The position numbers and the translations under genes are program-made. Source: Candidatus Dormiibacterota bacterium (lineage in GTDB: Bacteria; Vulcanimicrobiota; Vulcanimicrobiia; Vulcanimicrobiales; Vulcanimicrobiaceae). From it: DNA of 64,000 nt. This document shows, piece by piece, positions 13,108 through 19,572 of this stretch. Within the stretch, counting starts at the first letter, position 1. Every line of letters starts with the position of its first letter. The stretch covers positions 1-64,000 of the forward strand of contig DATKRS010000019.1 of the NCBI GenBank assembly GCA_035532035.1. The letters are read 5' to 3'. A model generated the notes under the pieces. It did not search any database and had not been told where the DNA came from. It saw nothing but the letters and a program-made list of their open reading frames with translations.

Positions 13108-13754
13108 AGCAGGGCGCGCAAGCGCCGGAGCCTTTCGCCCGGGTCCCCGCCGTCGAAAACGGCAGTTCCCATCACGATGACGTCGGCACCGGCACCGACG
13201 ACGTCGCGCAGGTTCGCTTCCCCGACGCCGCCGTCGACCTCGAGCTCGCAGGCCGGGTTACGCCGGTCGATGAGCGCACGCGCCGAGCGCAGCTTCTCCA
13301 TGGCGTGCGCGATGAACCGCTGACCCCCCATGCCGGGATTCACGGACATGACGAGGACGAGATCGCAATCGTCGATGACGTCGTCGAGCATCTCTACCGG
13401 CGTCTGCGGGCAAATGGCCACGCCTGCTCGCGCTCCCGATGCGCGGATGTGCGTGAGAAGGCCTTGCGCATGCGGCGTTGCCTCCAAATGGAAGGTGATG
13501 AGGTCGGCACCCGCCTCTCGAAACGCATCGACGCTGCGTTGCGGCTGCGAAACCATCAAGTGACAATCGAAGGGCAACCGCGAGAGCCGCCGGAGATCCG
13601 CAACGATTTTCGGTCCCCAGGTGATGGCCGGAACGAAGTGTCCGTCCATGACGTCGACGTGGAGATAGTCCGCTCCCGCGCGCTCGACCTGCGCAATCTG
13701 CTCCCCGATGCGCGAAAAGTCGGCCGAGAGGATCGATGGCGCGAGCTTCGTCAT
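13104..13754 (-). CDS. rpe: Ribulose-phosphate 3-epimerase
   Basis: TIM-barrel epimerase of 216 residues interconverting ribulose 5-phosphate and xylulose 5-phosphate. LAPSILSADFSRIGEQI at the start, YLHVDVMDGHFVPAITWGP (metal-binding His and Asp), CHLMVSQP, MSVNPGMGGQ and LEVDGGVGEANL cover the active site. It is coupled by four-base overlaps both to the PASTA gene upstream and to thiL downstream. It supplies the one pentose-phosphate isomerisation missing from the operon at 28647-37608, apart from ribose-5-phosphate isomerase, which I did not find. Confidence 0.96.
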   Translation of the reverse strand: MTKLAPSILSADFSRIGEQIAQVERAGADYLHVDVMDGHFVPAITWGPKIVADLRRLSRLPFDCHLMVSQPQRSVDAFREAGADLITFHLEATPHAQGLLTHIRASGARAGVAICPQTPVEMLDDVIDDCDLVLVMSVNPGMGGQRFIAHAMEKLRSARALIDRRNPACELEVDGGVGEANLRDVVGAGADVIVMGTAVFDGGDPGERLRRLRALL

Positions 13755-14863
13755 TGCTTCGCACCCGGGATCGCGCGCGCGCGCGTGCCGTAGATGCCGG
13801 CGGGCTCGATGCCGAGACGCGTTTCGCCGACGAGCACGTTGTCCGCATACATGTCGACGAGGGACGTTCCGAGCGCCGTCACGGTGAAATCGAGCTTCTG
13901 CCCGGGTTGTGCGTAGGCGTCGTACAGGTCGTACGACCCCGTCGCGTCGTGCACGACGAGGCGTACGCGAATCTGCTGTCCCGGGCGAATCTGATCCGGA
14001 ACGGGAACGGAAGCGAGCACGTGAACCTGTCGGACGATGTATCCGGACTCGAACGGCCCGGCGCTCACCTGCAACGAGACGGGATCGAACGAAGCGATCT
14101 GGGATCCCGGATCGGGCTTCTGCCGCGCGACGACGCCATGTGCCGGGCCCGACGATCCAAGCGGCGTCCAGACGATCTGCCCGAGCTTGATACCGCTTCG
14201 GCTTGCTAGCGAGCGTGCGCCGTCGATCGTCATTCCAACGAAGTTCGGCACGCTCAACAGCGCGGCGCCGCCTCGGCTCACCACGACGTTGACGACCTCA
14301 CCTTCTTCGACGCTCGCGAGCGGATCCGGGCTCTGCGAGATGACGTGCCCCTCGGGAACGATATCGCTGCGCGCGTAGGTGATCTTACCGAGCTGCAAGT
14401 GCGTGCGAGAGAGATCGAGCCCGACCTCACGCATCGACTGATAGCGCAGATCCGGCATCGAACGCGCAACGATACCCGAGCTCACGACGAACGATATCTG
14501 CCGTCCCTGGCGCACCTGGGTTCCCGCCGCCGGCTGCTGGTTAATGATCGTGTCAGCCGAATAGCGATCGCTAGTCAGATGCTCGACCACCTGCACTGTG
14601 AGCCCGAGATGCGCGAGCGCCTCGCTCGCGTCCAACAGTGACGTGCCGACCATCGACGGCACGGTGACGGTCGTTGCCGGCGGCACGAGAAACTCGTGAA
14701 TCGCGTGACCGAACCAAACGACGACTCCGACGAAGCAGGACAGGACGATCGGAAAGATCCAGTCCCGCGGAAGATACGCTCTCAGCACCTCGCCCCACGT
14801 GCGGCGTCTCTCCTCTTCCTCGTAAGGAAGCGGCGCGAGCGGCCGCAGCTCGTCCGGATCCAC
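13751..14863 (-). CDS. Membrane-anchored PASTA-repeat protein without a kinase domain
   Basis: A 370-residue protein with a short cytoplasmic, acidic N-terminus (PYEEEERRRTWGEVL) and one membrane span (about 36-56, FPIVLSCFVGVVVWFG). Three external PASTA repeats follow (about 66-135, 136-205, 206-275), for example TVPSMVGTSLLDASEALAHL and VPNFVGMTIDGARSLA. A beta-rich tail ends the protein. PASTA repeats bind muropeptides or cell-wall precursors and usually hang from Ser/Thr kinases of the PrkC type. No kinase residues are present, and the frame starts cleanly. It occupies the prkC position next to rpe and rpmB. The start is GTG 14863, three bases after yebC. Confidence 0.82.
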   Translation of the reverse strand: MDPDELRPLAPLPYEEEERRRTWGEVLRAYLPRDWIFPIVLSCFVGVVVWFGHAIHEFLVPPATTVTVPSMVGTSLLDASEALAHLGLTVQVVEHLTSDRYSADTIINQQPAAGTQVRQGRQISFVVSSGIVARSMPDLRYQSMREVGLDLSRTHLQLGKITYARSDIVPEGHVISQSPDPLASVEEGEVVNVVVSRGGAALLSVPNFVGMTIDGARSLASRSGIKLGQIVWTPLGSSGPAHGVVARQKPDPGSQIASFDPVSLQVSAGPFESGYIVRQVHVLASVPVPDQIRPGQQIRVRLVVHDATGSYDLYDAYAQPGQKLDFTVTALGTSLVDMYADNVLVGETRLGIEPAGIYGTRARAIPGAKQ

Positions 14864-14865
14864 CG

Positions 14866-15615
14866 CTACGCCAGGGCCTCTGCAACGGCGGCATCGGAGA
14901 GGTCGAGATTGCTGAAGATCCGTTGGATGTCTTCATGATCGTCGAGCGCCTCCAAGAATGCGAGCGCCTGCGAGAGCGGCGCGCCGTGCAGCTCGAGCTT
15001 CGTACGGGGGCGCATACCAAGATATGCGTCGGTGACGGCAACGCCGCGAGCGCGCAGCGCATCCCGCACAGAGGCAAGCGCGGCGGGCCGCGTGTACACC
15101 GTCGATCCCGACGCGTCGAACTCGAGATCCTCAACGCCGTCGACGAGCACGTCCTCCGTAAGCTGCTCCTCCGAACGATCTTTCGAATCGACCTCCAGAA
15201 TACCCACCGGCTCGAACATCCATCCGACGCTCCCGGTTTCGCCGAGCGACCCGTCGTGCTTCGAAAACACGAAGCGCAGCTCGCCCGCGGTGCGATTGCG
15301 GTTGTCCGTCGCAACGTCGACGACGACCGCGAGCCCATGCGGGCCGTACCCTTCGTAGCGCAGCTCTTCGATCTGCGCCGCATCGGCTTGACCGGATGCA
15401 CGTGCGATCGCGCGCTTGATGTTTTCCTGCGGCATGTTGCTCTCGCGCGCTTTTTCGACCGCCACTTTCAGGCGGTAGTTTGCCTCGGGATCGGGCGAGC
15501 CCGAACGCACGGCAACGATGATTTCCTTGCTCAGCTTGGTGAACAACGCGCCGCGCTGTGCGTCGGCCTTTCCCTTGCGCAGCCGGATGTTGTGGAACTT
15601 CGAGTGCCCCGACAT
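14866..15615 (-). CDS. YebC/PmpR family DNA-binding or translation-associated protein
   Basis: A 249-residue member of the YebC family with the strongly conserved opening MSGHSKFHNIRLRKGKAD, followed by RGALFTKLSKEIIVAVRSG and the domain II segment YEGYGPHGLAVVVDVATDN. Family members have been described as transcriptional regulators, and recently as factors easing translation of proline stretches. Sequence alone does not separate these roles. It lies between the fused glycosyltransferase and the PASTA gene on the same strand, 34 bases after the former. Confidence 0.93.
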   Translation of the reverse strand: MSGHSKFHNIRLRKGKADAQRGALFTKLSKEIIVAVRSGSPDPEANYRLKVAVEKARESNMPQENIKRAIARASGQADAAQIEELRYEGYGPHGLAVVVDVATDNRNRTAGELRFVFSKHDGSLGETGSVGWMFEPVGILEVDSKDRSEEQLTEDVLVDGVEDLEFDASGSTVYTRPAALASVRDALRARGVAVTDAYLGMRPRTKLELHGAPLSQALAFLEALDDHEDIQRIFSNLDLSDAAVAEALA

Positions 15616-15649: not shown

Positions 15650-18600
15650 TTACCCTGGGCCGATGATCCAGGTGGGAAACCACATGCGAGCGTGCCACGC
15701 GTCGTACGAGAGTGGCCACGCGGAAAGCACCGGTAAAAAGAAGACGAACGCCGCCGCGATAACGCCGAGAATGCCGAAGACGGCGACGCGCCCCACGATC
15801 AACGCCGAGCGCCGCTCGTCCGCGGTGCGTCCCTCTCGAGCATTGGCCCATCGCCAGATCCGCTGCAGCACGATTGCGTTGCAAAGGCAAATGAGCGGAA
15901 TGTCCACGTAGAAATGGTACTCCCACGCGAGGCGAGGCGATTTCGCCCAAGGCAACCATTGCAACAGATACGTGACGACGAGCAGCGCGTACCCTTTGTT
16001 GCGCTCGCGCCATGCGAGAATACCCACGAGAGGCACGCAGATCAAGCCGAACCAGAGATTGATCGGATTTGGCATAGAGGTGATTTCGGTGATGCAGCAC
16101 TGCTTGTTCGGATCGTGTTGCGTGCGGTCGAGACTGCGATGGTCCTCGTAGTAGTATGCCACGGGGACGTAATCGAACGGCCATTCGAACCACTTGGATG
16201 CGTACGGGTGCGTCGCTTTCAAGTGGTCGTGATAATCGAACATGGCGTACTGGCGCAGAACGACGTCGTTGATGTTGTGAATTTCATTCGGGTCCGGTGC
16301 CTGACGGATGAGGTCGGGCAACCAGACCATGCCGTAGACGGTCATGGCCACGAACGCGATCGTCACGAGCGCTCCGTCGAGGCGAAAGCCGTGCGGGTTA
16401 CCCCAGAGCGCGGGGCGCATCGGGCGCAAATACGGCTGCAACCAGATGAGGATGAGCAGCAGGAAGCTGACGCCGAAGCCCATGACGCCGTACCACTTCG
16501 AGCTGACGAGAGCGCCGAGCGCGAGCGTGAAGAGCAGCAGCCAGAGCTTGGCGGTGCGGCCGTCCTCCACGCGGTCGCCGGCGGTAATCCGCGCTTTCGC
16601 ATACGTTGCCGATCCTGCCGGCGTCTCATATGTGACTGCGTCGCGACGGTAGACGATCTCGACGTCGTCGTCGTCGTACACGAGCGTACCGCCCTTGCTC
16701 AGCGTGAGCTGCCCCCGACGCGCCGCACCCTTGCCCACGACGCCGCCGTCGACCGTACGCATTTCGCTCTCGCCCGCATCGTGCAGCGCGAGAGATCCTT
16801 CCGGGAATGTCAGCTCGCGCGCTCCCGAGGCGAAGTTCGCCGGAATGACGACGTAACGAAAGAGCAGATAGAAGCCGCACGCGAAGTAGGCCGCACACAC
16901 GTAGATCGCTCCGGGCCCCGACGTCTGCCCGGCGGTCATCCACGAAACGAACCATGGCCAGCCGAAGATCCAGTGCTGGGCACCGTCGAGAAGGAACATC
17001 GCGGCGACGCCGAGCCCGATCGACGCGACGACGGCCGCCGTCAGGAGCGGCCAGCCGACCGCGACGTGCGGTCGCTCTCCCGTCTGCGACGCGATCCAAA
17101 ATCGATAGAACGCGTACACCGCAGCGAGCGAAAAGAAGACGACGAATCCTTCCGGCGTCGCAATGCGCGATTGCACGTAGTGCATACCGTCGAGCATGAG
17201 AAGTCCGGCGGCGACTGCGGCCCAGGCGGTCGAGCGCGTGACCCGCTTCGCGAAGACGTAAAGCAGCATCACGACGAGCGCGCCGAAAACGACGTCGAGG
17301 AAGCGCCATCCCCACGAGTGGTCACCGTGCGGCAAGCCTCCGAACATCCACGTCGAGACCGTGACGAGCAGCTTCGTCAGGGGCGGATGGGTGTTCTCAT
17401 AGATCCGAAGATTTCTCAGATACTCCTCGGCGGCGCGCGCGAAGTAGACCTCGTCGAAGATCTTCTCCGTCGGCTTCCAGTACCACGTGGGAATCGCGAG
17501 CGAAAGCACGAAGGTGGCCGCGCCCAAGACCGCCATCACGATGTAGTCCAGAGGCTTGCGCATCGCGGCCAAGCCTTCGCCCGGATCGAACCAATTGCGA
17601 ACGCGCCCGAGGAAATCGCCGTGCGTCTGGGCCGGCATCGCTCCGCGTTCCTCCGCGGTACTCCCCAAGAACACGTATCCGAGGTAGAAGAACAGCACGA
17701 CGTTCGCAAGCGACAGGAACGTCGCCACCGGTCCCCACAGATTGTAGGCGCTGACGTTCGAGGGCGCATGCGAGGTCAGCAGGGCGATATACTGATACGA
17801 GTAGATAAGATTCGCCCAGAAGACGATCGACAATCCGATGCCGCACCAAAGATAGCGCCGCGCGAACGGGAGGCACGCGATGGTGAAAACGACGCCGTCG
17901 AAGACGTAACGCTCGTGCATGCGCGTCGCAAGCGTAAAGAAGCCGAGGAGTGAGATCGCTGCCGCTTCCAGCAACGCCTGCGACGTCTTCAGCTGGATGT
18001 AGCGCCAGACGAGGAGCGCGACCGCAGCGACGACGAGGATGATGCCCCACGCCGCCTGCGGCAGGAAGAGGATGCGCGCGCTATCCGGCTGCCAGAAGAC
18101 GCCGCCCGCGTTCCAGACGCGCAAAGCCCAGATATTGAACGCGTTGACCGAGTTGAACGGATAGACGTTCGTTCCGAAGCTGAGGCGCTCCAAGAGCCAC
18201 GCGATCGCGGCAACCGGATTCGAGGGATGGAACGGTTCGACGAGCACGATCGTGAGGATGACCGCGGCGACGATTCCGTACGCGGTTGCGCGCAAACGCA
18301 AATCTCGTCGCGTTTGGCTCGTGAAGGCGAAGGCAACGAAGAGCGGGAGCAGTACCGCCGCTTGCGGCTTCACGAGCAGCGAATATGCGAGCGAGAGCCA
18401 TCCGCACGCGATCCACGTCGTCGCACGCTGCGGCACGTCGAAATCATCGCTGCGCACGAGCGCGTAGACGCCGAGCAGCGCAAAGAAGCAGGCGATCGAA
18501 TCGACCTGCCCCCAGAGAGCCGAGACAAAGATAACCGCAGGATTGAATATGTAGAATGCCGCCGCGCCGAGCGCCACGGTCTGGGAGGCGAAACGCCGTA

Positions 18601-18967
18601 CGAGTGCATACAGCAGCGTGCCGAGCGCCAAGTCGAACGCGATCGCTGGAAGCTTGACGAGAACGGAGAGCACGCCGTATCCGGCGTCGTGCGCGCTGAA
18701 GAACTGCGACCAGAACGCTCCGACGACCCCGAGAATATAGAAATATCCCGGGGGGTAATCGAGGAAGCTCGTCGAGGCGTAGAAGCCGCCCGGTCCGTGC
18801 GCCACGAGCGCCATCGCCCATGCTTCGAAGCTCGCGACGTCGTTGGGAAAGCCTTGCGCGCGAAGATAGACGAGGCGCAGGACGAGGCCGAGGAAGAGTA
18901 TCGCCGGCAGCGCCCATGGGAGCGCGCGTTCGTAGACGGGCGTTTCGGAGCGCGTTGCGATCTTCAC
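15650..18967 (-). CDS. Fused double GT-C membrane glycosyltransferase
   Basis: A 1105-residue membrane protein made of two GT-C glycosyltransferase-like halves. The first (about 1-465) starts with a membrane span and an external loop with NDVASFEAWAM and DYPPGYFYILG, as in lipid-linked sugar transferases of the GT87/mannosyltransferase kind. The second (from about 468) resembles the protein O-mannosyltransferase family PMT. It has IFDEVYFARAAEEYL with the acidic pair near residue 503, THPPLTK, and a C-terminal HPYASKWFEWPF stretch. A soluble insert (about 710-790) sits within it. GTG 18967 overlaps the plsC stop (GTGA); the longer frame is antisense-type noise. The acceptor is unknown. Confidence 0.75.
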   Translation of the reverse strand: MKIATRSETPVYERALPWALPAILFLGLVLRLVYLRAQGFPNDVASFEAWAMALVAHGPGGFYASTSFLDYPPGYFYILGVVGAFWSQFFSAHDAGYGVLSVLVKLPAIAFDLALGTLLYALVRRFASQTVALGAAAFYIFNPAVIFVSALWGQVDSIACFFALLGVYALVRSDDFDVPQRATTWIACGWLSLAYSLLVKPQAAVLLPLFVAFAFTSQTRRDLRLRATAYGIVAAVILTIVLVEPFHPSNPVAAIAWLLERLSFGTNVYPFNSVNAFNIWALRVWNAGGVFWQPDSARILFLPQAAWGIILVVAAVALLVWRYIQLKTSQALLEAAAISLLGFFTLATRMHERYVFDGVVFTIACLPFARRYLWCGIGLSIVFWANLIYSYQYIALLTSHAPSNVSAYNLWGPVATFLSLANVVLFFYLGYVFLGSTAEERGAMPAQTHGDFLGRVRNWFDPGEGLAAMRKPLDYIVMAVLGAATFVLSLAIPTWYWKPTEKIFDEVYFARAAEEYLRNLRIYENTHPPLTKLLVTVSTWMFGGLPHGDHSWGWRFLDVVFGALVVMLLYVFAKRVTRSTAWAAVAAGLLMLDGMHYVQSRIATPEGFVVFFSLAAVYAFYRFWIASQTGERPHVAVGWPLLTAAVVASIGLGVAAMFLLDGAQHWIFGWPWFVSWMTAGQTSGPGAIYVCAAYFACGFYLLFRYVVIPANFASGARELTFPEGSLALHDAGESEMRTVDGGVVGKGAARRGQLTLSKGGTLVYDDDDVEIVYRRDAVTYETPAGSATYAKARITAGDRVEDGRTAKLWLLLFTLALGALVSSKWYGVMGFGVSFLLLILIWLQPYLRPMRPALWGNPHGFRLDGALVTIAFVAMTVYGMVWLPDLIRQAPDPNEIHNINDVVLRQYAMFDYHDHLKATHPYASKWFEWPFDYVPVAYYYEDHRSLDRTQHDPNKQCCITEITSMPNPINLWFGLICVPLVGILAWRERNKGYALLVVTYLLQWLPWAKSPRLAWEYHFYVDIPLICLCNAIVLQRIWRWANAREGRTADERRSALIVGRVAVFGILGVIAAAFVFFLPVLSAWPLSYDAWHARMWFPTWIIGPG

Positions 18968-19572
18968 GCGCGCGGCGTCTCCTCGCTGTTGACACGCTTT
19001 GCGAGCGCGCGGATCTCTCCCATGACGGTCGCCGTGAACTTCGCCAGTTCGTCGCGCGTTGCTTTCCGGCCGCCATCGAGCCGCAGCGCGGGCCCAAATA
19101 CGACTTTCATCGCATGAAGGCGGAGCGCCCGGTCGCTCCCGACGATTGCTGCGGGAACGACGGGCGCCTTTGCCAGCGATGCCAGCAGCGCCACTCCTTC
19201 GCGCGCGCGCGCCTCGCCGGTGGGATTGCGCCCGCCCTCGGGAAAGATTCCGATCGCTTCGCCGGCGCGCAACATCTCGATCGAGCGCTTGACGGCACCG
19301 AACGCACTGCCCTCCCTGTCGACGGGATATGCGCCTACCGCTCGAATCAACGGCCCGAACAGCGGGATCTCGAAGAGCTCCCGCTTCGTCATGTAGCGTA
19401 GCGGACGCGGGCAATACGCGCCGAGAATCGGCGGGTCGAGAAGCGACAGGTGGTTACAGGCGACGATCAACGGACCAACGGCGGGAACGTTCTGCGCGCC
19501 TTCGACGCGCACGCGCCACACCACGCGCGAGAACGCCCGGATGCCTACTTTGGCGCATCCGTAGAGCGTCAT
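18964..19572 (-). CDS. plsC: 1-acyl-sn-glycerol-3-phosphate acyltransferase
   Basis: Adds the second acyl chain in phosphatidic acid synthesis. The 202-residue protein has the catalytic H41-x4-D46 (NHLSLLDPP), the glycerophosphate-binding FPEGGRNPTGEA motif at about 107-118, and a conserved VPAAIVGSD near the end. A short hydrophobic N-terminus would hold it to the membrane. It overlaps cmk by four bases upstream and the glycosyltransferase by four bases downstream. The cmk-plsC pairing is widespread in bacteria. Confidence 0.94.
   Translation of the reverse strand: MTLYGCAKVGIRAFSRVVWRVRVEGAQNVPAVGPLIVACNHLSLLDPPILGAYCPRPLRYMTKRELFEIPLFGPLIRAVGAYPVDREGSAFGAVKRSIEMLRAGEAIGIFPEGGRNPTGEARAREGVALLASLAKAPVVPAAIVGSDRALRLHAMKVVFGPALRLDGGRKATRDELAKFTATVMGEIRALAKRVNSEETPRA

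Follow-up and report, generated by a model that had tools for sequence, protein, structure and literature searches.

The stretch of DNA analysed here (64,000 nucleotides of contig DATKRS010000019.1, assembly GCA_035532035.1, hereafter the window) carries at 15650..18967 (-) a gene which, stop codon included, encodes a protein of 1105 residues. The ORF reading showed an open frame without internal stop over the whole of 15650-18967 (-), with a GTG start at 18967 preceded by an SD-like GAGGAG at 18984-18979. The start shares 4 bases with the stop of a plsC-like acyltransferase gene (18964..19572, -), which is a neighbour not thought to be part of the function, and on the other side lies a yebC-family gene (14866..15615, -), conserved downstream in 44 of 53 relatives. 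Beyond the fusion and yebC, on the downstream side, follows another conserved gene, at 13751-14863 of the window, for a membrane protein that has a PASTA domain but no kinase domain. Three Pfam models matched the 1105-residue protein, namely PMT_2 (residues 102-240), PMT (486-654) and PMT_4TMC (901-1100). An earlier note on this DNA had described a single 1105-residue protein with these coordinates and with the acidic pair and THPPL motif discussed below, and the ORF and Pfam readings bear this out. The same note had proposed that two GT-C glycosyltransferase modules, each with its own active site, are joined in one polypeptide; indeed, the catalytic residues of both modules are intact, being invariant in 44 aligned fusions, so that the loss of the catalytic acids in one module, which was specifically checked, did not occur.

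It might be argued that the joined frame is an artefact of sequencing or assembly, or that a stop between two genes was missed. No point in support of this was found, and 106 genes in 102 of the 117 genomes of the window's class (counted by joining N-module matches with PMT_4TMC matches across these genomes) have both modules in one frame. A missed stop was looked for: independent genomes, among them that of a 90%-identical relative (L004), have no stop between the modules; the artefact is ruled out by these genomes, and we regard it as virtually impossible. In most of the 15 class cases without the joined frame, the genome is incomplete or a contig ends within the gene. An internal duplication of one GT-C gene was also considered and rejected: when the N- and C-terminal profiles were compared, the hhalign probability was only 8%, and therefore neither half is a recent copy of the other.

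A scan of GTDB genome contigs gave 17 fusion loci that were 41-90% identical, 13 of them from Candidatus Eremiobacterota or UBP12. Of the 149 genomes of the phylum that were searched, almost all those belonging to the window's class had the fusion, as a rule at full length and in one frame. Genomes from outside the class usually encode PMT as a separate protein of 400-600 residues, which agrees with the earlier view that the modules are normally separate enzymes. A divergent fusion (L052/P0002, 1-3369) occurs in genome G011, from another class of the phylum; its N half is devoid of the DYPPGY, WGQVD and MHERY motifs, its C half retains D-E and HPP, and it may have been fused independently or have decayed. 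Stand-alone relatives of the N module were also observed, namely a protein with a C-terminal NPCBM carbohydrate-binding domain (L051:994-2736) in a genome outside the class (G014), and paralogues of 450-500 residues in varied neighbourhoods (L128-L135; genomes G117, G123, G107, G061, G094 and G130). The scan of viral contigs and the viral fold search gave no match; the plasmid search gave PMT-type matches in Actinobacteria only, none of them spanning 80% of the query, and no plasmid relative of the N half. Spread of the fusion by viruses or plasmids was thus discarded. The genome search covered the window's phylum, and the two-module fusion may occur in other phyla.

The C-terminal module (residues 473-1105; 15653..17551, -) matched PMT (PF02366, 77.6 bits) and PMT_4TMC (PF16192, 68.7 bits), both over cut-off. 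The profile search with the C half retrieved Pmt4 at 8.7e-25 and also Pmt1/Pmt2, Foldseek with the fusion model returned Pmt4 at 6.4e-10, and the AlphaFold model is predicted to recover the 11-helix PMT fold in this half, with two extra helices. As judged from Pfam, the PDB profile and the predicted fold, the C half is a putative protein O-mannosyltransferase (GT39). The acidic pair and the THPPL motif that had been noted in it are present as described. The pair, D505-E506 (17450..17455, -), lies in the first periplasmic loop, corresponds to D74-E75 of MtPMT, and is the predicted catalytic base; it was found in 44/44 fusions. The THPPL motif (526-530) includes the invariant T526-H527-P528-P529 (17381..17392, -). 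The further residues of the C half kept in the 44 fusions are R601, K824-W825, H913, H920, W929-P930 and R1012. The acceptor-side loop EL4 (residues 899-966; 16070..16273, -) has a conserved HPY..WxWP..P..Y pattern, and R1012, also present in 44/44 fusions and followed by F or W at 1015, belongs to an R1012-x2-aromatic-x-Y element (15917..15934, -) which is the predicted donor phosphate/acceptor pocket and is equivalent to MtPMT R441-Y444. Both equivalences with MtPMT were drawn by comparison with its published mutants (PMC12331936).

It should be noted that the R601-x4-E606 element (17150..17167, -) has Glu in place of the catalytic-pocket Asp of other PMTs (D176 in MtPMT). This site is Glu in 53 of 54 in-class proteins, as against Asp in all 10 out-of-class stand-alone PMTs. 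Because the D176E mutant of MtPMT is barely active (PMC12331936), the class-specific E606 calls for caution with respect to the PMT reading. The NCBIfam PMT equivalog (NF058602), in addition, scored 76.1 bits, far from its 800-bit cut-off.

The N-terminal GT-C module (residues 11-435; 17663..18937, -) has about 12 predicted membrane helices, and its assignment is based on the AlphaFold model, the PMT_2 match and a profile match to GPI mannosyltransferase 1 (1.2e-5, search with the N half). The earlier note had called this half GT87/mannosyltransferase-like. Of this description, what stands is that the half belongs to the GT-C enzymes and is of ALG6/GPI-MT-I/GT87 type; the Pfam GT87 model (PF09594) gave no match to the window's N half, its gathering score not being reached. 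When 38 N halves were compared with Pfam, PMT_2 was matched by 17, GT87 by 12 (weakly, best 1.9e-6) and Alg6_Alg8 by 10. These sequence comparisons put the N half among the GT-C enzymes, in the ALG6/GPI-MT-I/GT87 neighbourhood but outside Pfam GT87. Five other Pfam GT87 matches are present in the window's genome.

As in enzymes of the ALG6/GPI-MT-I type, the loop following TM1 of the N half contains an acidic residue, D43 (18839..18841, -), which is invariant in the 44 fusions and is the predicted catalytic base. A catalytic Asp in the loop after TM1 is known from PimE (D58) and ALG6 (D69) (PMC12041525, PMC12653191), and D43 is predicted to occupy the same position. Kept in the 44 fusions are also K105 and D112, D70-Y71-P72 and G74-Y75 of the DYPPGY motif (residues 70-75, invariant or nearly so; 18743..18760, -), W152-G153-Q154-x-D156 of the WGQVD motif (152-156; 18500..18514, -), K200-P201 (K200 at 18368..18370, -), and T348-R349-x-H351-E352-R353-Y354 of the TRMHERY motif (348-354; 17906..17926, -). 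By analogy of position, K200, a probable donor-phosphate contact, is likely to correspond to PimE K195, and H351 to PimE H322 (PMC12041525).

Structure prediction had been proposed as the way to count the membrane spans and to place both catalytic sites. The AlphaFold model of the fusion (mean pLDDT 84.6) has a pTM of 0.67, which leaves the relative placement of the two modules uncertain; the topology read from it comprises about 25 membrane spans. With these 25 helices, the Lys+Arg fraction (mean of 44 sequences) is 0.151 in cytoplasmic and 0.062 in periplasmic loops. The catalytic residues of both modules are accordingly predicted to be periplasmic, and the linker and a small beta-domain cytoplasmic. 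The linker (436-472; 17552..17662, -) has low pLDDT at 438-453, and its cytoplasmic location is predicted from the positive-inside count. The second half had been credited with an atypical soluble insert. The insert is unusual indeed, but is more precisely made of an extra transmembrane hairpin (639-712, with helices 639-668 and 686-712; 16832..17053, -) and a beta-domain (713-802; 16562..16831, -), both lying between PMT TM4 and TM5 in the model. The hairpin is absent from four relatives (L076-L079). The beta-domain, with about ten strands modelled at pLDDT ~90, is predicted to be cytoplasmic and has a Y-P-D-G-S signature; the domain, with a signature of this kind, is present in 44/44 fusions. 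Two weak and separate signals, i.e. Pfam Tcp10_C (10 of 36 members, best 0.0024) and Foldseek 4bxr (E about 1), suggest a resemblance to the TCP10/CPAP-like beta-sheet (G-box domain), to be taken as a lead only. DUF7289 was discarded as the identity of the domain, its score being below cut-off.

In the tree of the C module, a single clade (100/99) unites the fusions with the stand-alone PMTs of the class and leaves out the PMTs from outside it. Because the in-class stand-alone PMTs are nested among the fusions, with at least four changes required, they most likely arose by loss of the N half. The beta-domain is also gone in 9 of 10 of them; the tenth, a tandem copy beside a fusion, has retained it. 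This joint loss with the N half suggests a function of the beta-domain in the fused state.

As far as the gene neighbourhood is concerned, it had been suggested that the coupling to plsC points to a role related to membrane lipids. Upstream sequence is available for 53 relatives. Among these, a prenyl-diphosphate synthase is the closest gene upstream of the fusion in 41, and this place is taken by ispH in three and by plsC in nine; five of the nine also have a prenyl synthase, and were probably mis-sorted through overlapping ORF frames. In most relatives, ispH and the prenyl-diphosphate synthase stand between plsC and the fusion, and the direct adjacency seen in the window is confined to its close relatives. 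The link with plsC is therefore secondary, and the older link is with isoprenoid synthesis, a prenyl synthase or ispH being nearest upstream in 44 of the 53; a plsC-linked lipid function was consequently set aside as the main clue. Isoprenoid neighbours suit enzymes that consume polyprenyl-phosphate sugars. The window's genome differs from most relatives in that its two prenyl-diphosphate synthases are located elsewhere (L108 and L109; G000 contigs C32 and C4). One of these homologues (L109:1231-2373), and also the prenyl-diphosphate synthase which adjoins the fusion in a relative (L012:2879-3922), had as their best NCBIfam model the family 2 encapsulin cargo polyprenyl transferase, below cut-off. 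A homologue of dolichol-phosphate-mannose (DPM) synthase of about 240 residues (L096; G000 contig C19, 137754-138251; 8e-52 to 5mlz) is encoded outside the window, on the same contig as the fusion and about 119 kb away from it.

The two halves can be compared with enzymes from several known systems. The bacterial PMTs of family GT39 (MtPMT Rv1002c, ScoPMT and CgPMT) share with the C half the PMT and PMT_4TMC core, the D-E pair, HPP, R-x2-aromatic and the EL4 loop, but in the fusion this core sits behind a second GT-C enzyme, carries E rather than D as its second acidic residue, and contains the predicted cytoplasmic beta-domain and the transmembrane hairpin between TM4 and TM5. Yeast and Chaetomium Pmt4 and Pmt1/Pmt2 match the C half best, by structure as well as by profile; they have, however, a lumenal MIR domain where the fusion has a predicted cytoplasmic beta-domain, and they are dimers, whereas here a second GT-C enzyme is fused. 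PimE (GT87), an alpha-1,2-mannosyltransferase which elongates mannoproteins and PIMs, is similar to the N half in its GT-C-type architecture and in the catalytic Asp after TM1; a polyprenyl-phosphate-mannose donor is assumed, and the elongator role proposed, for the N half. PimE is, on the other hand, a separate protein, and the N half is under the Pfam GT87 threshold. ALG6 and GPI mannosyltransferase I (PIG-M/Gpi14) were among the Foldseek matches of the whole fusion model (6snh, 9wno), the latter also being found with the N-half profile; unlike the fusion, these are eukaryotic ER enzymes with lipid-linked acceptors, and are not joined to a PMT.

In actinobacteria, PMT puts the first mannose on exported proteins using polyprenyl-phosphate mannose as donor, and PimE or another GT87 enzyme of mycobacteria and actinobacteria extends the PMT-started mannose with the same donor (PMC12757957). 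Since the fusion combines one enzyme of the PMT type with one of the elongator type of this precedent, we propose, with about an even chance of being right, that it is a polyprenyl-phosphate-sugar-dependent enzyme, the C half of which initiates, and the N half extends, O-linked glycans on exported proteins. Both halves would be GT-C enzymes with periplasm-facing active sites and a polyprenyl-phosphate-linked hexose as donor; the hexose is probably mannose, and the making of the donor would fall to the DPM-synthase homologue, a separate protein. The C half would transfer the first sugar onto Ser/Thr of exported proteins, as bacterial PMTs do, and the N half the next sugar onto the first, as PimE-like GT-C enzymes do on mannoproteins. 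The fusion would hold initiator and elongator together in a 1:1 ratio, and the cytoplasmic beta-domain would probably help to join the two halves. What the computation shows is the fusion itself, its conservation, two intact sets of catalytic residues, a predicted topology and the neighbouring genes; the donor, the protein acceptor, the order of the steps and the role of the beta-domain are inferred. Of the options raised earlier, action on one acceptor twice thus appears, by this analogy, to be the best reading; the alternative, that a lipid-linked sugar is made and transferred within one protein, is unlikely, considering that both modules are predicted to be periplasmic consumers of lipid-phosphate sugars and that the making of the donor is assigned to the DPM-synthase homologue.

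Against the two-step reading stand E606 in place of Asp, the position of the N half under the GT87 cut-off, the motif loss in the N half of L052, and the score for NF058602; moreover, the acceptor of the N half could be a lipid or a polysaccharide. Accordingly, one may think of two active GT-C enzymes with different acceptors, i.e. proteins for the C half and a glycolipid or an envelope polysaccharide for the N half, fused only for co-expression or for a shared supply of polyprenyl-phosphate sugar. The solved relatives of the N half (ALG6, GPI-MT-I and ALG3) use lipid-linked acceptors, stand-alone paralogues of the N module exist at other loci of the class, and isoprenoid genes adjoin the fusion. 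Yet a class-wide covalent fusion suggests a closer cooperation than shared supply, and so does not favour this possibility, nor does the loss of the N half and the beta-domain together in stand-alone PMTs; we consider separate acceptors possible, though on the whole unlikely.

A rather more doubtful alternative is that the C half, despite its PMT-like fold, has changed its specificity towards another sugar or another acceptor, and makes no mannoproteins. While the class-wide D-to-E change at 606 and the divergence from the NCBIfam PMT model would be in line with this, D505-E506, HPP, R1012-x2-aromatic and the acceptor motif of EL4 are all retained, and a DPM-synthase homologue is present in the genome. 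Eukaryotic PMTs dimerise, and PIGU serves in GPI transamidase, and in a similar way the N half might be a non-catalytic intramolecular partner of the PMT half. GT-C folds can indeed become non-catalytic subunits, PIGU is among the Foldseek matches, and the out-of-class L052/P0002 has a degenerate N half. In contrast, the base, DYPPGY, WGQxD, Lys and HERY of the N half are invariant in the 44 in-class fusions, and a scaffold would not need them, so that we find a non-catalytic N half quite improbable.

Each module on its own is of a known kind. In the open literature, we found no description of a GT-C/PMT fusion, or of a PMT in Eremiobacterota/WPS-2; nor did we come across any account there of the covalent pair, its class-wide retention, the Glu specific to the class or the cytoplasmic beta-domain. 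To the best of our knowledge, bacterial protein O-mannosylation has been studied almost only in actinobacteria, where initiator and elongator are separate enzymes. A bolder version of the two-step reading, which we put forward tentatively, is a class-defining machine for protein glycosylation made of a single polypeptide: the PMT initiator and the ALG6/GPI-MT-like elongator would be an intramolecular GT-C pair, held together by a cytoplasmic TCP10-like beta-domain proper to the fused form, and the product would be handed from one active site to the other. The two-step reading predicts that a mutant in the active site of the C half makes no glycan, and that a mutant in that of the N half makes a one-sugar glycan. 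Kept by almost all members of a class of uncultured soil bacteria, a covalent pair would represent a second solution to the same task. If true, this would provide a compact tool with which to glycosylate proteins in two steps, and would suggest that Eremiobacterota have a general system of surface glycoproteins.
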